Shown here piece by piece: positions 21,933 to 30,400 of a stretch of 64,000 nucleotides of DNA. Position 1 is the stretch's first letter; each line of letters starts with the position of its first letter. Below the pieces are notes generated by a model. The model was not told the origin of the DNA. It worked only from the letters and a program-made list of their open reading frames with translations, and did not search any database. The DNA comes from Gemmatimonadota bacterium (lineage in GTDB: Bacteria; Gemmatimonadota; Gemmatimonadetes; Gemmatimonadales; Gemmatimonadaceae), in NCBI GenBank assembly GCA_014192065.1, contig BJHH01000005.1, positions 62,001 to 126,000 on the forward strand. The letters run 5' to 3'. Both the position numbers and the translations under genes were made by a program.

Positions 21933-22288
21933 ATGAAGTAGTCCGCCTGATTCGGGTGGAGATAGAGTATGCCCATCTGCTCGCCGTTCGCCATCCACCG
22001 CGCCGCCGGATACCCCTCCTCGGCGGCCGGTAGGTTGCAGAACTCGTCTGGATCTTCTTGTAATGAAGAGCGCGTGGTGATGCTAAGTCGTTTACAAACA
22101 TAGTGTTATGCGACAACTGCCAGCGCGAATCGGCTTGGCATAGAGGCCGAGCGGAAGAATACACTGTTACGCCCGCTGCTGGCTGACTCTCAAAGCAGGT
22201 ATCGCTCGGGGTGACTGAATTGCCAGTTCGGCACCCGTACACGATCATTCCGAACACGTAACAGCATGCCCCATCGAATCCGCGAGAA
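21933..22288. other. 356-bp divergent intergenic region
   Basis: This stretch lies between the TPR gene and a GNAT gene and looks more AT-rich than its surroundings. No convincing gene is present. It contains small inverted elements (CTGTTACG at 22164-22171 and CGTAACAG at 22257-22264) and a possible but weak promoter for the GNAT gene (TTGGCA, then TACACT 19 bases later). Both divergent promoters must lie here. Confidence 0.5.
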
Positions 22289-22831
22289 ATGCCACCGTTC
22301 GACGTTATCATCACGCACCTCGAACTTTCCCCAGAAGACTTCAAGCCGAAGCGTTCTGGTCGCGGAGATGTAGCATTTTCGCAGGTCGGCAAGCCAGTTC
22401 CTGAACTCAACCGGTTCTTCTACGCGGCGATCGGCGGCCGGTGGTTCTGGCTCGACCGGCGCCCCTGGACTCTTGCCCGATGGGCCGCTCACCTAGCGGA
22501 CGCCAGCCGGATTGAGACCTGGATTCTGTCTGCCGGCGGTGTCCCGGCCGGCTATGTGGAGCTCGAACATAAGGACGGCGGAGCGGTCGAAATCGACTAC
22601 CTCGGTCTGCTCGACGCCTTCATCGGTGAAGGGCTCGGCGCGCACCTCCTGACCTGCGCCGTCGAGCGCGCCATCGCCATGGGCGCCACCAAGGTCCTGC
22701 TCAACACCTGTAACCTCGACCACCCCAAGGCTCGTGCCAACTACGAGTCCCGCGGATTCCAGGCCGTCCGAACTGAGGTCAAAACCATGGAAGTTCCGGC
22801 TCAACCGCCTGGTCCTTGGGAAGGCGCGTAA
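22289..22831 (+). CDS. GNAT-family N-acetyltransferase
   Basis: 180 residues from ATG 22289. The sequence has RPWTLARWAAHL, GVPAGYVELEHKDGGAVEIDYLGLLDAFIGEGLGAHLL (motif A with GEGLG) and ARANYESRGFQAVR (motif B), so it belongs to the acetyl-CoA-dependent GNAT superfamily. The N-terminal half is aromatic rich (RFFYAAIGGRWFWLDRRPW), a pattern seen in a GNAT subgroup of unknown substrate. It stands alone in the divergent region and is followed 118 bases later by an amidohydrolase. It is not closely similar to the three GNATs at 13.2-14.8 kb. Confidence 0.83.
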   Translation: MPPFDVIITHLELSPEDFKPKRSGRGDVAFSQVGKPVPELNRFFYAAIGGRWFWLDRRPWTLARWAAHLADASRIETWILSAGGVPAGYVELEHKDGGAVEIDYLGLLDAFIGEGLGAHLLTCAVERAIAMGATKVLLNTCNLDHPKARANYESRGFQAVRTEVKTMEVPAQPPGPWEGA

Positions 22832-22949
22832 ACACCAGTTTGAGCGAAAAAGCGCCACGCGGGACCCGATTGTCTCGAATCGCCCGTTGTTTTTTCGTAC
22901 ATTTTTCGCGTACCGCCACCGCACCGCGCGCCACCATTGGGAGGATCTA

Positions 22950-24623
22950 ATGAAGAGCCGTACTCTCTCCGTTTTCGGTCTCATCGTCACCGTTTTGGTT
23001 GTGCCTGGCAACGCGGGCGCTCTTCCTGCGGCGCCGCAAACGGCCGCCCAAGCGACCGTCACACCGCAGAACCTCCGCGCTGAGCGCGCCGACGACCCGG
23101 CCGCGGCTCCTGCGCGCCGCGAAGGCGATGGTCCGTTCACCCGGCTCATCATTCGAGGCGCCACCCTGATCGACGGAACCGGCGGCCCGCCGCGCGGACC
23201 GGTGGATATCGTGATCGAAGGCAACAAAATCGTGGATATCGCCGGCGCCGGTACGCCGGGGCTCCCGATGAACGACTCCACGCGCCGTCCGAGGGGCGCC
23301 GTGCGTGAAATCCAGGCCGCCGGGATGTATGTGATTCCCGGATTGGTCGATTTGCACGTGCATCAGGGTACCAAACAGAAGGCGCCCGACTCCGAGTACT
23401 ACAACAAGCTCTGGCTCGCCCACGGCATCACCGCCGTGCGCGGCGTGCCGTTCGCCAGTTTTGACTATTCAATGAAGGAAAAGGCGCGCAGCGCAAAAAA
23501 CGAGATCACCGCGCCACGGTACATCGTCTACCAGCGCCCCGGCAGCGGTTGGGAGAAGGGTCCGGTGCGCACTCCGGAGCAGGCACGCGAATGGGTGCGT
23601 TGGCTCGCCCAAAATGGCGGCGATGGACTCAAGGTTGGTGCAGAGCGCCCCGACATCATGGCCGCGCTGCTCGATGAAGCGAAGAAGCTCGGGCTCGGAT
23701 CGACTGCCCACTTGCAGCAGACCGGCGTCGCGCAGATGAACGCCGACGAAGCGACCCGGCTCGGCCTGCAGACCATCACGCACTTCTATGGACTGTTCGA
23801 GGCGATGTATGATCGCAACTCCGTGCAGCCATGGCCTGTCGACATCAACTACAACGACGAGCAGAATCGCTTTGGCCAGGTTGCGCGCCAGTGGAATCTC
23901 GTCACCCCGCGCGGCGAGAAATGGAACTCGCTGCTCAAGAAGTTCAAAGAGCGCGACGTGACGCTCGACCCGACGATGGTGGCGTACCTCACCGGCCGCG
24001 ACCTGACGCACCACATGGCCGCGCCTTGGCACCAGAAGTACACGCTCCCGACGCTCTGGGACTACTACACACCGAGCCGTGCGAATCACGGATCGTACTG
24101 GTACTACTGGACCACGGCCGACGAAGTCGCGTGGCGTAACTTCTACCGCGTCTGGATGGAGTTTCTCAACGACTACAAGAACATGGGCGGCCGCGTCGTA
24201 GCGAGCTCGGACGCGGGATTCATCTACAACACGCCGGGCTTCTCGACGATTCAAGAAATGGAACTGCTCCAGGAAGCCGGATTCCATCCGCTCGAGGTGA
24301 TTCGCGCGGGCACCTATCACGCCGCCGAGACGCTCGCCAAGAATAAGACGACACCGATGGAGTACGGCAGCGTGCAGATCGGCATGCTCGCCGACCTCGC
24401 GGTCGTGGACCAGAACCCGCTCGAGAATCTGAAGGTTCTGTATGGAACGGGCGCGCTCAAGCTCAACGACAAGACGGGCAAGCCAGAGCAGGTGGGCGGG
24501 GTGAAGTGGACGATCAAGGACGGTATCGTCTACGACGCAAAGAAACTCCTTGCCGACGTCGCGAAGATGGTGGACGACCAGCGCAAGACGCGTCCCGCGA
24601 CCGACGCGATCAGGCCGAAGTAG
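22950..24623 (+). CDS. Exported metal-dependent amidohydrolase
   Basis: 557 residues from ATG 22950, with GGGAGGA just upstream; the extra 72 codons of open frame overlap the GNAT gene. A signal peptide (MKSRTLSVFGLIVTVLVVPGNAGA) comes first. The amidohydrolase fold then shows LIDGTGGPPRGPVDIVIEGNKIVDI and VIPGLVDLHVHQGT with the HxH metal site, a later STAHLQQ histidine, ITHFYGLFE and ASSDAG with the final Asp. Members hydrolyse amide or imide bonds in cyclic or N-acyl substrates; the substrate here is unknown. The C-terminus ends exactly where ABC-exporter-like sequence begins in another frame, so the last few residues may come from a recombination junction. Confidence 0.87.
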   Translation: MKSRTLSVFGLIVTVLVVPGNAGALPAAPQTAAQATVTPQNLRAERADDPAAAPARREGDGPFTRLIIRGATLIDGTGGPPRGPVDIVIEGNKIVDIAGAGTPGLPMNDSTRRPRGAVREIQAAGMYVIPGLVDLHVHQGTKQKAPDSEYYNKLWLAHGITAVRGVPFASFDYSMKEKARSAKNEITAPRYIVYQRPGSGWEKGPVRTPEQAREWVRWLAQNGGDGLKVGAERPDIMAALLDEAKKLGLGSTAHLQQTGVAQMNADEATRLGLQTITHFYGLFEAMYDRNSVQPWPVDINYNDEQNRFGQVARQWNLVTPRGEKWNSLLKKFKERDVTLDPTMVAYLTGRDLTHHMAAPWHQKYTLPTLWDYYTPSRANHGSYWYYWTTADEVAWRNFYRVWMEFLNDYKNMGGRVVASSDAGFIYNTPGFSTIQEMELLQEAGFHPLEVIRAGTYHAAETLAKNKTTPMEYGSVQIGMLADLAVVDQNPLENLKVLYGTGALKLNDKTGKPEQVGGVKWTIKDGIVYDAKKLLADVAKMVDDQRKTRPATDAIRPK

Positions 24624-24835
24624 TCGCGGGCATTGAAGCCGCGATGCGCGGACGCACCACCGTGGTGATCACGCATCGACTGGCGCTCGCACAATGCGCC
24701 GATCGGATCATCGTCCTGCAGGGCGGTTGCATTGTGGAAGAGGGCACGCCAACGGAACTGATGGCCAAGGGCGAGGCGTTCACGGCGCTCTTCGTCGAGA
24801 GCGCCGCGGCCGCGTCGTTAGATTCCCATGCATGA
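24612..24835 (+). pseudogene. C-terminal remnant of an ABC exporter ATPase
   Basis: Only about 74 codons resemble an ABC exporter: AEVVAGIEAAMRG, then TVVITHRLALAQCADRIIVL with the H-loop His, and VEEGTPTELMAKGEAFTALF, the usual C-terminus of MsbA-type half-transporters. Walker A, the signature motif, Walker B and all membrane segments are missing. Upstream in this frame lies the out-of-frame 3' end of the amidohydrolase gene. The remnant ends with TGA overlapping the start of the subtilase (ATGA), as expected for a former operon partner. I infer a deletion that removed most of the transporter. Whether any part is still translated is unknown. Confidence 0.75.
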
Positions 24836-25539
24836 GCCTCTCGCTGCCGCGCGGTATTCGCGTCGCCATTGTCGATAGCGGCATCGCCACCGGGCATCCG
24901 CATGTGGGAGAAGTCGGTGAAGGGGTCTCGCTCTTGCCCTGGGTGGAAGACACGCTCGACCGCATCGGGCACGGCACCGCCGTCGCCGGAGCGATTCGCG
25001 AGAAGGCGCCGAGCGCGGAGCTCATCCCCGTCAAGGTGTTCGACCGCAATCTCCGCACCGACGGCGTGTCGCTGGCCGCCGCCATCCGGTGGGCCGCCGA
25101 GCACGACTGCCAGTTGATCAACCTTTCGCTTGGCACTGCGAACGTCGAGCATCAGGCGCTGCTCGAGTCGGCGGTGGATTTCGCCATCCAAAACGGTTGC
25201 ATGGTGATTGCGGCATACGAAGCCGAGGGCAAGCGATATTTGCCCGGGTCGTTCGACAGCGTGATTGGCGTGGTCGGGAGCGCTGCGCTCGGACGCGAGC
25301 GCCTCGTGATCAAGCCAGCGGCGAAGGGTGGCCTTCGACTCGGCGCGTCTATCTATCCTCGGCCGATTCCCGGTGTGCCGAAAGAAAAGAACCTCCACGG
25401 GATTTCATTCGCCGTCGCCAATGTGACGGGCACCCTCGCGCGGTACCTCGCCAACGGTACCACGAAGGACCTCCGAGGTTTCATCAAGCAGCTTCAGGAT
25501 CAGAACCACAAGGGTTCCTCGCGCCGGAGTGCGCCATGA
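24832..25539 (+). CDS. Small cytoplasmic subtilisin-like (S8) serine peptidase
   Basis: 235 residues from ATG 24832. The triad is readable: Asp15 in VAIVDSGI, His47 in RIGHGTAVAGAI and Ser192 in HGISFAVANVTG. The usual oxyanion-hole Asn of the AAGN motif is absent; the sequence there is VIAAYEAEG (125-133). No signal peptide, prodomain or C-terminal extension is present, so it probably acts in the cytoplasm. Small leaderless subtilases of this kind occur in peptide-maturation gene sets, where they trim precursor peptides before ABC export. The ABC-exporter stub directly upstream (ATGA overlap) fits that idea, but no precursor peptide or modifying enzyme was found. Activity may be reduced by the missing Asn. 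Confidence 0.8.
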   Translation: MSLSLPRGIRVAIVDSGIATGHPHVGEVGEGVSLLPWVEDTLDRIGHGTAVAGAIREKAPSAELIPVKVFDRNLRTDGVSLAAAIRWAAEHDCQLINLSLGTANVEHQALLESAVDFAIQNGCMVIAAYEAEGKRYLPGSFDSVIGVVGSAALGRERLVIKPAAKGGLRLGASIYPRPIPGVPKEKNLHGISFAVANVTGTLARYLANGTTKDLRGFIKQLQDQNHKGSSRRSAP

Positions 25540-26057
25540 TTTGCATCTGCCGAACATTCGCTGGACTCGCGTTCGTTACGCTCATCGCAAACGCGGCACA
25601 GGCGCAGGTGCGCATCATGCTTCCTGCCTGGAACGAGGCGGTGCTGATGGATTCGATGAAGGTGGAGCAGGCGCTGCGCGCCGCACCCGAGGCGGTATAC
25701 GCCGCCGTCCTCAGGGCGTACGCCGATCTGGAAATTCCGACCGGCAATACCGACAACATCAAGGGCATTATCGGTAGCGAAGTCTTTGAAAAAATCCACC
25801 GTTTTGTCGGGGCCACGCTCTCCCGTTCATTCAGTTGTGGCGACTCAGCAAACGGCCCCAACGCCGATTCATATCGTCTGAGCATCGCCGTCGTCACCTG
25901 GGTCGCGCCAGGCGCGAATGGGGGCACCACGCTCGCCTCAGCGACGGTCGCGAGCGGCAGGGATGTTGCCGGCGTCTCGCGCGTGCCGCGTCACTGCGCA
26001 TCGACCGGCGCGATCGAGGCTAAGATTGCCGCTGCCGTGGAGCGGTACCTCAAGTAG
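25536..26057 (+). CDS. Secreted protein of unknown function
   Basis: 173 residues from ATG 25536, which overlaps the subtilase stop (ATGA). The N-terminus MICICRTFAGLAFVTLIANAAQAQ is a clear signal peptide. The mature part is about 150 residues with two cysteines (SFSCGDS and RHCAST), possibly a disulfide, an alpha-helical first half (VEQALRAAPEAVYAAVLRAYADL) and a beta-rich second half. I do not recognise a family. Coupling to the subtilase suggests it could be a substrate, inhibitor or partner, but this is only contextual. Confidence 0.7.
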   Translation: MICICRTFAGLAFVTLIANAAQAQVRIMLPAWNEAVLMDSMKVEQALRAAPEAVYAAVLRAYADLEIPTGNTDNIKGIIGSEVFEKIHRFVGATLSRSFSCGDSANGPNADSYRLSIAVVTWVAPGANGGTTLASATVASGRDVAGVSRVPRHCASTGAIEAKIAAAVERYLK

Positions 26058-26080
26058 GCTCGCCCGGCGCGTGAGTTTCC

Positions 26081-27040
26081 GTGGTGCTCCCGCTACTATT
26101 CCGAGTGCCCGCTGACATAAAGACTCACGACCCGACGGCCCTGCCGCACCCCTCGCCCCTGATCGTCCATGGGGCGCTGTTTCTGGTGGGGCTTCTCTTT
26201 GGCGCGAACTACTTCGTCGCCAAGGTCGCCATGCGCGAGATCACGCCGCCAGCGCTCGTAGCGATCCGTACGCTTGGCGCCGCCGCGGTGCTCTTTGCCG
26301 CGTCGGCGTTCTGGCGCGGTCGGGCACCGCGAATAACACTCAGCAAATCCGACTTCGCCCAGCTCTTCGCCTTCAGTTTGCTCGGCGCGTCTATCAACCA
26401 GCTCTGTTTCCTCGAAGGGCTCACGCGCTCAACGGCCACCAACGCCAGCATCATCTTTGTCGCGACACCGGTCGTGACACTTGCGTTCGCCGTGCTGCTC
26501 CGCCGTGAACGCGCGTCCTGGCGGGCGATCACGGGGATCATCCTTGGCCTCATCGGTGCGCTGATCCTGATCGTCCCGCGTGGCGGCGTGGACATCACGA
26601 CGAACGCCATGACGGGCAACATCCTGCTCTTCCTGGGTGCGGCGTCGTACTCCCTCTACCTCGTGCTCACGCGGCCCATTCTCACCCGGCACGACCCGCT
26701 CCGTGTGGTGAGCTGGACCTTTCTGTTTGCCGGGCTAACGATGGTGCCGATCGGGTACAGCGGTCTGAAAGCCGTGTACGCATCGGGACTCAGTCCGGCC
26801 GCTTGGTGGAGCGTGGCCTACGCCGTCGTCGGCGCGACCGCGCTACCGTACCTGCTCAACAACTGGGCGCTGGTACGGGTGCAGGCCTCGACGGTGGCGA
26901 TCTACATCCTGGTGCAGCCGCTCGTTGCCGGCGGGTTAGGGCACATCTTCCTTGGCGAACGCCTCGGCGCGGACACCGCGGTCGCAGCGATACTGATCGT
27001 TGGGGGTGTTGTGGTCGCCGCATCGAGGCGCACGGCCTGA
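26081..27040 (+). CDS. EamA/DMT-family transporter
   Basis: 319 residues from GTG 26081; a second GTG follows one codon later. About ten membrane helices are arranged as two EamA repeats, the first beginning HGALFLVGLLFGANYFVAKVAMREITPPALVAIR and the second GNILLFLGAASYSLYLVLTRPIL. The ending GHIFLGERLGADTAVAAILIVGGVVVA is the family's typical GE-containing last repeat. These inner-membrane proteins export amino acids, nucleotides or other metabolites. It starts 23 bases after the secreted unknown protein, so it may belong to the same transcript, but a functional tie is not evident. Confidence 0.85.
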   Translation: MVLPLLFRVPADIKTHDPTALPHPSPLIVHGALFLVGLLFGANYFVAKVAMREITPPALVAIRTLGAAAVLFAASAFWRGRAPRITLSKSDFAQLFAFSLLGASINQLCFLEGLTRSTATNASIIFVATPVVTLAFAVLLRRERASWRAITGIILGLIGALILIVPRGGVDITTNAMTGNILLFLGAASYSLYLVLTRPILTRHDPLRVVSWTFLFAGLTMVPIGYSGLKAVYASGLSPAAWWSVAYAVVGATALPYLLNNWALVRVQASTVAIYILVQPLVAGGLGHIFLGERLGADTAVAAILIVGGVVVAASRRTA

Positions 27041-27112
27041 ATAAATCGGCTACAATCTGAACCCAATACCCGTGCAAACGGGTATCTTTCAGCACACACC
27101 CGGAGCGTGCAC

Positions 27113-27307
27113 GTGGCAAAGCCGAATTTCAGTTTTCAGAAGCGTCAGCGTGAACAGGCCAAGGCCGCCAAGAAGCAGGACAAGCTCGCGCGTCGCGCGG
27201 AGCGGGCCAACGACCCGAACGCGGAGCCCGAGATTCCTGATTTCGACTTCAATGCCCCGGCTGCGCCCGCCGTGGATGCCCCGACGGAGCCAGGCACCGA
27301 GCTGTAG
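27113..27307 (+). CDS. Small basic conserved protein, function unknown
   Basis: 64 residues from GTG 27113, placed by GGAG at 27102-27105 with seven-base spacing; another GTG lies two codons earlier. The protein starts VAKPNFSFQKRQREQAKAAKK and is strongly basic and helical in its first half, then acidic and Pro/Ala rich. The MAKPN-FQKRQRE opening is a recurring pattern in short conserved hypothetical proteins of several Gram-negative groups, as far as I recall; this needs checking. A basic head and acidic tail would suit nucleic-acid or ribosome contact, which is speculation. A hairpin follows the stop. Confidence 0.65.
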   Translation: MAKPNFSFQKRQREQAKAAKKQDKLARRAERANDPNAEPEIPDFDFNAPAAPAVDAPTEPGTEL

Positions 27308-27365
27308 GTCGCGCCGATCCTGGCGACGCCGCGCACCCGGCAAATACAATCAGGCCAAAATGAAA

Positions 27366-27397
27366 CCGGGCTCCTTCGCTCTCGCGAAAGGGCCCGG
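27366..27397. terminator. Bidirectional terminator hairpin
   Basis: A 14-bp stem (27366-27379 with 27384-27397, two G-T type wobbles) closes on a TCTC tetraloop. It sits between the stop of the small basic protein and the stop of the convergent PD40-amidohydrolase gene, so it can serve both transcripts. There is no obvious U-tract. Confidence 0.65.
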
Positions 27398-27416
27398 GTC
27401 ACTGGAGAGCCGAGAA

Positions 27417-30400
27417 CTACTTCTTCGCCGGTGGATCTTCCTTCCACCACCACTGCGGAGGAAGGGCTTTCGCGCGCGGCCACACCTCAGTGAGATTGTT
27501 GCCGTCATAGAGCCGACCATTCTTCATGACGTACTTGACCGAGTTCGTGTTGCGGATGTCGATCAACGGATTCATGTCGAGTACCTGCAGGTCGGCGAGC
27601 TTGCCGATTTCGAGCGACCCGAGATCCTTCGCTAGGCCAATCGCGTCGGCGCCGTGGATCGTCGCGGCGCGCAACGTCTCCAAGTTCGTCATCCCGCCAG
27701 ACTGCATCATCCACAACTCCCAGTGCACGCCGAGCCCTTGCAGTTCGCCGTGCGACCCGAGACCCACGCGTCCACCGGCCTTCACGAACTTCGCCAACTG
27801 CTCGGCGTGTCCCTTGTAGATGTACTGGTCGTCACGATTGTACGTGAGCGACTTCCACGAGTCGAGTTCGTCGTGCGGAGTGAAATAGCGGAGCTTCTTG
27901 TCTTCATCGACGTTGTAGTGCGTCAGCCAGTAGTTGAGTCCCGTCGGGCCACCGTAGCCAACGACCAGTGTCGGCGTATACGTGATGCCGCTGGTCGCTT
28001 GGAGCTGCACGACATCCTTGAACAGCGGGAAGATCGGTATCGCGTGCTCGAGACCGGGATAGCCGTCCTGCATTAGCGTCAGGTTCATGGAGAGGTTCGA
28101 CCCACCCTCAGTGGTGGTGGTGAGCCCCAGTTCCTTCGCCGCCATGATCACCCACTGCCGCACCTTGCGGTCGCCGGCGAGGTACTGCTTGATGGTCTTC
28201 GTGTTGAAGTGGTCAGCGTAGCGGCGCAGGACGTCGCGCGCCTCATCGAGGCTCTTGATGTTGTCTGCCCCAAAGATGCCGGGGCCTGTCGAGTACAGCC
28301 GCGGCCCGATCAGCGCGCCGGTCTCCATCAGGTCGGTGTAGGTGAGGATGTCGGTGGCCGACGTCTGCGGATCGCGCTGCGTCGTCACGCCATAGGCGAG
28401 GTTCGCGAGCAACTGCGTTACCTGATCGCGGTGCACGCCCCAGCCAAACCAGTTGTGCGCGTGGATGTCCACGTACCCCGGAATGATCGTCTTGCCAGCG
28501 ACGTCAATCACCTTCGCGCCAACAGGCACCTTCACTGAACCACGCGCGCCGATCGCTGCGATGCGGTTGTTGGTTACGACGATGTCGCCCGTCTCGATGA
28601 TCTTGTCGCCATTCATCGTGACGATGCGCGCGCCGCGTAGCACGACGCTGCCGCTGGGTCTGTCTTTCATCGCGGTGATCGTCACGTCGAACCGAAGCGC
28701 CTCGTAGGCCATCAACGGCTTTTTCGTTGTGTCACGGGCCGCGGCCGCACCAGCGCCACCAGCGCCAGCGGCCGGTGGGGCACTCGCGATAGAATCCGCA
28801 CGCGACACCGAATCCCGAACGGCCGCCTCCGCGGCGCCCACATCGTACCGGAACCAGCTGCGACCAATTGAATAAAAGGCCGTCGCGCCGTCGGCGGACC
28901 AGCCGATGAATTCGCCACCCACGCGGGTGAGCCGTCTGGTCGGTACTCCGGCTCCTGACACACCGATCGCCGGCGCCACGCCAACCACCGGCGGCACCGT
29001 GATCATGAAAACGTTGTTGTTGGCGAGCACGAGCGCGCGCTTGCCGTCTGGTGAGAGCAGCACTTCATCCGGAGATGGCGGTGGCGGCGGCGTTGCCCCC
29101 GGCGGCAGCGGCTGTGCCGGCGGCGGCGGGCCCGCGACGCGAGCCACGATTTTCCGGTCGCTGCCGTCGAAGCGCATCGACACGAGACCCTCGTTGCCAG
29201 CCCATACATAGAGACGTGCGCTGTCGGGCCCCACATGTGGCACGCTGCGGCCCTGCTGCGACTGGCCGCTGCCGGCCCATGCGATGCGTACCGCGTCGCC
29301 GCCGGCCGCGGGGATCGTCACGTACTCGAGTTCGCCGTTCGCGATATTGCCGAAGTCCTCGAACTGTCGCATCCGGCTGAAACGCGAGCCGCGCACGGCC
29401 ATCAGCCGCGTGCCGTCTTTGGTGTACGCGATCTTGTCGAAGTACGCAGCCGTGCGCGTGAGTCGTTCCGGCGTTCCACCGGCCGCGGCTACTCTATAGA
29501 TGTTGCCTCCGGCGGTGTCGGTCCACGTCACATACGCGATGTAGCGGCCGTCGGGCGACCAGACGGGCGCGTGTTCCACCATTCCGCCCGCCGTGAGTTT
29601 GCGCGGATTCTGGATCTGGCGCATGGCGGTGTCGCCGCCGGCGGGAACGGCACCGAGTTCGCCGACGTAGAGCGCGTCGAGCGCAGTGAATGCGACGAGC
29701 CGGCCGTCTGGCGACGGCTTTGCGCCGCGAATCTGCGTGACGACGAGCGTCGAGTCATTGATGGGATACTCGAACTTGGCGAGCGCGCCCATCTGTTGGT
29801 CCACCTGGGCGGTGAACGGGACAGCTGTCACGGTGCCCGAGGGAATGGCCACGCGCCAGATCTTGCCCCCGTAGCTCGTGATGAGTGACCGGGAATCAGG
29901 CGTGAACGCCGAGGCGGGGTAGAGGTCGCGATCGTTGACGCCGCCGCCCTGCGAGTTGTCGCGCTGCACATCCATCACGAGCCAGCGTTCCTCGCCAGTG
30001 TTCAGGTCGCGGAGCTTGAGCGCTTCGCGCGCGTCGGTGCGTGTGGCGTAGACGAGCCACTGACCGTCCGGGCTCGCGACTGGGCGAAAGGCGCCGTCAG
30101 TCTCGTGCGAGCGAACGAGCGTGCGGCCCGTCTCGCGGTCGAACTGCGCGATCTGATACAGCCCGATACGGCGCGCATTGCTGCGGGCTTCGAGTATCTC
30201 ATTCTCTTCGCGCGCCGAGCTGACGTCGGTGTGCAGCACTGCGGTGGCGAGGGCAGGCGGTGTGCTGCCGCTCACGTTCACCCAGAGGTAGCGTGCATCG
30301 CCGCTCGGTGCCGCCCCGTAGTGCGAGGGAGTCGCTGCGGCGCCGGCTGGTGCGGCGCCCTCGGGGCGGAGGCCCGTGAGCTGCACGCCCGAGCCGCCGT

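Follow-up and report, generated by a model that had tools for sequence, protein, structure and literature searches.

The locus described here is very probably the scar of a deletion that removed most of a qhp operon, some 8.4 kb relative to the intact operon of a same-genus relative (G008). It lies in a 64-kb window (G000:C5:62001-126000, in whose numbering positions are given below) of a genome of 2.45 Mb that is assembled in 16 contigs and is 97.75% complete. On the plus strand of this window, an intact amidohydrolase gene (22950..24623) is followed by the 3' stub of an ABC exporter gene, qhpF (24617..24835), by an intact gene for a leaderless, cytoplasmic subtilisin-like protease of 235 residues, qhpE (24832..25538), and by a gene for a predicted secreted protein of 173 residues (25536..26057). 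The stub and the subtilase gene overlap in an ATGA (24832-24835), as do the subtilase and secreted-protein genes (25536-25539). The first-pass annotation had described this order with both overlaps, and we find it so. Its reading of the locus as the remnant of a peptide maturation and export cassette is also borne out, and the cassette can now be identified as the end of the qhp operon, the subtilase scoring above the cutoff of NCBIfam model NF049966.

The product of the qhp operon is the quinohemoprotein amine dehydrogenase QHNDH, a periplasmic amine-oxidising enzyme. According to the accessible part of PMC7876137, the radical SAM protein QhpD cross-links the small subunit QhpC, QhpG hydroxylates a QhpC tryptophan, QhpE cleaves off the 28-residue QhpC leader and the ABC transporter QhpF then exports QhpC; QhpA and QhpB are the remaining subunits. 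QhpE is described there as a single-turnover protease encoded alongside its substrate, QhpC. With the known qhp (pea) operon, qhpABCDEFGR, the window shares a QhpE family match, the 3' end of qhpF and the order of these two genes. Unlike that operon, it is without qhpG, A, D, C and B and most of qhpF, so that the enzyme could not be made from it. The accessible part of PMC4417212 gives no description of qhp in this phylum.

By sequence, the subtilase is QhpE and the stub corresponds to the end of QhpF, together forming the tail of a qhp operon. The subtilase scores 169.6 bits against NF049966 (QH_SP, QhpE), whose cutoff is 165. This cutoff is strict for these relatives, since the QhpE of G008 reaches 163.5 bits despite the full operon around it. 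The protein also matches the Pfam S8 family (9e-13), and its catalytic triad, Asp15, His47 and Ser192, aligns with that of QhpE from 11 other genomes (the alignment with subtilisin BPN' spans the Asp and His of the triad only), in keeping with the leaderless protease of the earlier description. The window protein shares 61-63% identity with true qhp copies and 36% with the QhpE-like copy of another genome, G011.

The stub comprises about 72 codons and includes the H-loop region. It matches the NCBIfam MsbA model (1.5e-14) over profile positions 506-565 of 572, its frame running to the TGA at 24833-24835, and it is 77% identical to residues 508-572 of the G008 QhpF (tblastn, E 3e-23). Thus the QhpF beside qhpE in the window is not full length: only residues ~508-579 are left and the first ~507 are gone. 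With nothing before residue ~508, the stub has, by inspection, no membrane part and no Walker A or signature motif, motifs that we take to lie in the missing part of QhpF. Among the 24 matches listed when the genome was searched with QhpF, the stub is the closest (69%), while the other 23 are at most 42% identical; two of these are long ABC exporters (30-32%). The first reading was thus right that this is an exporter C-terminus in another frame than the amidohydrolase. It put the remnant at about 74 codons beginning within about 15 bases after the amidohydrolase stop, and in fact the remnant overlaps that stop.

The left side of the joint is the amidohydrolase gene, which ends in a TAG at 24621-24623 and matches Pfam Amidohydro_1 (2e-10); the Pfam search used the open frame from 22734, and the start at 22950 was picked by eye for its signal-like MKSRTLSVFG. 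Its orthologues in G008 (88% identity) and in a second same-genus genome, G001 (81%), both have the qhp operon downstream. In G008, a single contig carries a GNAT gene, the amidohydrolase gene, a 186-residue open reading frame, qhpG-A-D-C-B-F-E and the secreted-protein gene. There, QhpA (477 bits, cutoff 274), QhpD (547, cutoff 453) and QhpC exceed their NCBIfam cutoffs; QhpG (227, cutoff 240) falls narrowly short, as does QhpE, and QhpB is weak (42, cutoff 223). In G001, the amidohydrolase gene, the operon and the secreted-protein gene lie on two contigs, and the 186-residue frame was not matched there. In a third same-genus genome, G010 (61% complete), the two ends of the operon lie on two contigs, with the GNAT gene and the 186-residue frame and with no amidohydrolase gene beside them. 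Both sides of the window's joint are thus collinear with an intact operon, and same-genus relatives have the known operon whole together with the window's left side.

How much is gone can be read from the G008 alignment. By blastn, window positions 23079-24606 match the G008 amidohydrolase gene (83.5%) and 24635-25450 match its qhpF-qhpE (68%). In the window only 29 bases separate the two blocks, against 8,393 in G008, so that about 8.4 kb are absent from the window; in G008, the corresponding stretch holds the 186-residue frame, qhpG, A, D, C and B and most of qhpF. The amidohydrolase homology extends to 24606 by blastn and to the last codon by protein, and the G001 qhpF block begins at 24612. 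The two homologies therefore overlap at about 24612-24623, which we place as the deletion junction, and the event may have made use of a short sequence common to both sides. Short repeats occur in 24560-24900, none of them long. An 8-base inverted pair near the joint (24594-24601 and 24623-24630) was taken as chance, and a search of 22000-27500 against Rfam was negative at gathering scores.

We propose that the ancestor would have carried the GNAT and amidohydrolase genes, then qhpG-A-D-C-B-F-E, then the secreted-protein gene, and that a deletion, of about 8.4 kb by comparison with G008, would have placed the final ~72 codons of qhpF directly against the amidohydrolase stop. After this event the genome would no longer make QHNDH. 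A deletion joining the amidohydrolase gene to the exporter end had been suggested at first sight, and it is the most likely course of events: in G008 and G001 the same left side comes with some 8 kb of additional sequence and with an exporter of full length. Transfer of a partial operon is less likely, since the two sides both match those of a relative with the operon intact. The direction of change rests on few genomes, QhpA being found in only 3 of the 17 other same-genus genomes searched. Beyond the secreted-protein gene, the window and G001 have an EamA gene next, G008 and G010 a helicase gene; that side was thus also rearranged among the relatives.

Could the missing genes be elsewhere, or simply have been lost by the assembler? 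Searches of the whole genome gave no match to QhpA, QhpB, QhpC, QhpD or QhpG. The same searches found QhpA in three same-genus genomes, QhpB in G001, and QhpC in G008 and G001 (not in the 61%-complete G010); that for QhpG had no positive control. An operon that is present and was skipped in assembly, for instance when two strains were joined, is improbable. The joint is admittedly known from a single assembly, of 16 contigs. Against such an artefact, none of these five proteins is matched anywhere in a genome of such completeness, there is no long repeat around the joint, and the genes on both sides stand in the order of the relatives.

The family-wide picture sets this genome apart. QhpA exceeds its cutoff in 15 of 179 family genomes, and QhpE-like matches at E 1e-20 occur in 18 of the 179. 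In the 12 family genomes where QhpE reaches at least 140 bits, it lies within a qhp operon in 11, whole or contig-cut (the cut ones include G001, G091 and G176); the window's genome has the only orphan. Four of the QhpA genomes (G010, G019, G177 and G184) have no QhpE match at E 1e-20, G010 having a contig-cut QhpE and the contig in G019 measuring 3 kb. The order qhpG-A-D-C-B-F-E was seen in full at eight loci (L032 and L175-L181) and is fixed in the Gemmatimonadaceae loci readable in full. Two checks proposed with the original reading gave positive results: a full-length ABC exporter precedes the subtilase in relatives, qhpE directly following a near-full-length qhpF at every one of the 12 Gemmatimonadaceae loci that show both genes (L032, L033 and L175-L184, one qhpE being cut by a contig end), and the short precursor gene nearby is qhpC. 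Outside the family, this gene order recurs on a named Leisingera plasmid, where peaA, peaB, qhpC, peaD and the ABC transporter are annotated. On a named Cupriavidus plasmid, genes annotated as peaA and peaB lie close to an ABC-protease pair, in a different order.

The case is one of ordinary gene loss within a family already known, and no new system. What makes it instructive is that nearly a whole operon was lost, apparently not long ago, with edges that can be placed within about a dozen bases. It also means that an equivalog-level QhpE match alone does not imply QHNDH production.

What, then, became of the protease? Bereft of its substrate and exporter, QhpE is probably a relic in which decay has not yet begun to show. 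The window protein has changes at 3 of 47 family-invariant residues, and when each of eleven others is left out in turn, it has 0-3 changes of 44-47 (G140, whose QhpE is cut by a contig end, and G011, with its lanthipeptide-type copy, are not in this count). The branch dN of qhpE is 0.135 for the window and 0.161 for G008. Synonymous distances between the two genomes are near saturation (dS ~1.5 for qhpE, 0.9 to 1.7 overall and infinite for one secreted-protein pair), and simulation was therefore used instead of dating by dN/dS. Under neutral change of 0.05 per site, in a model with uniform sites and a single chosen share of transitions, 31% of runs keep both frames open and 29% show no more than 3 changed invariant residues; at 0.075 per site or more, so few invariant changes occur in at most 4%. 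Since changes in QhpE are not in excess, either the loss is recent compared with the divergence from G008, or constraint on QhpE persists.

That QhpE was kept under selection for another job, acting on another peptide and perhaps with the secreted protein, is quite improbable. Such retention would agree with the intact frame, the branch dN and the invariant sites, and a QhpE-like protease does occur in the lanthipeptide-like cluster of G011. A recent deletion explains these data equally well, as the simulation at 0.05 per site illustrates; moreover, neither exporter nor QhpC is left beside qhpE, and the description of QhpE (PMC7876137, accessible part) is of a single-turnover enzyme whose gene accompanies that of its substrate. 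A further version, in which QhpE would have outlived its operon through a new substrate and now be a free-standing protease, perhaps linked to a BamC-like secreted protein, we consider very improbable. Finally, it is barely credible that the stub is a functional small gene re-initiated at an in-frame ATG (24644) some 20 bases past the amidohydrolase stop, given that everything before QhpF residue ~508 is absent, that QhpF is full-length in both same-genus loci with a readable gene upstream of qhpE (G008 and G001), and that a Cys stands where all five relatives compared have retained an arginine. Change in the stub is somewhat above that in G008 (0.077 versus 0.033), over 60 shared codons only.

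This leaves the secreted protein to be placed. Its signal peptide was judged by eye only. The protein has no Pfam or NCBIfam match, and nothing significant was found among PDB sequences (best E 0.55). It belongs to a Gemmatimonadaceae family with members in 32 of 61 genomes, including this one, which has four copies (paralogues at G000:C5:29432-29947, G000:C1:261544-261915 and G000:C4:140538-140912). The gene follows qhpE in all four same-genus genomes with a qhpE orthologue (the window's, G008, G001 and G010). No match was found at the ten other-genus loci (L175-L184), 8 to 9 of which can be judged, L184 ending within qhpE and L183 covering only 1.5 kb downstream. In G003, a genome without QhpA or QhpE matches, a relative of the protein lies ~1.2 kb from an EamA gene.

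A predicted model of the 173-residue protein (mean pLDDT 64) resembles the N-terminal domain of BamC, an outer-membrane assembly lipoprotein. Three Foldseek matches to PDB structures have E below 0.001 (1.5e-4 to 7e-4), to chain C of BAM complexes or to the BamC N-terminal domain; in the first two structures, we take chain C to be BamC. The sequence identity is only 7-8%, and the model is a fold hint only, weakly suggesting a BamC-like protein. It had been proposed that the secreted protein is a client or partner of the protease. We reject the client role as unsupported, and it appears unlikely given the four paralogues, the position beside qhpE in this genus only among the loci examined, and the weak BamC-like model. 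Members of the family also occur in genomes where QhpA was not matched, and the QhpE substrate described in the accessible part of PMC7876137 is QhpC. Thus the protein is better seen as a genomic neighbour of qhpE, perhaps co-transcribed with it.

A further observation concerns the active site of QhpE as a family. The Asn in the AAGNEG motif of BPN' is the oxyanion-hole residue of subtilisin, and it has no counterpart at the aligned site in the window QhpE and in eleven others. Because these eleven also lack it, its absence from the window protein is not decay. Judged from the alignment, this absence may bear on the reported single-turnover behaviour of QhpE.

QhpE-like proteases also occur in other settings. 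At L191 (G068:C327, 7593-9952), a second, more distant one precedes an ABC exporter, and the 15 kb examined contain no further qhp gene. Pairs of a RiPP subtilase and an ABC exporter, as in G011, share with the window the cytoplasmic subtilase beside an ABC exporter. In G011, proteins resembling LanB and LanC and a putative precursor accompany the pair, whereas the window has none of these next to the subtilase. The G011 subtilase (131 bits, under the cutoff) lies at L034 (G011:C154, 4295-12980) in a class I lanthipeptide-like cluster of ABC exporter, subtilase, LanC-like, putative precursor and LanB-like genes, and the putative precursor, of 99 residues, has many Cys and Thr towards its end.
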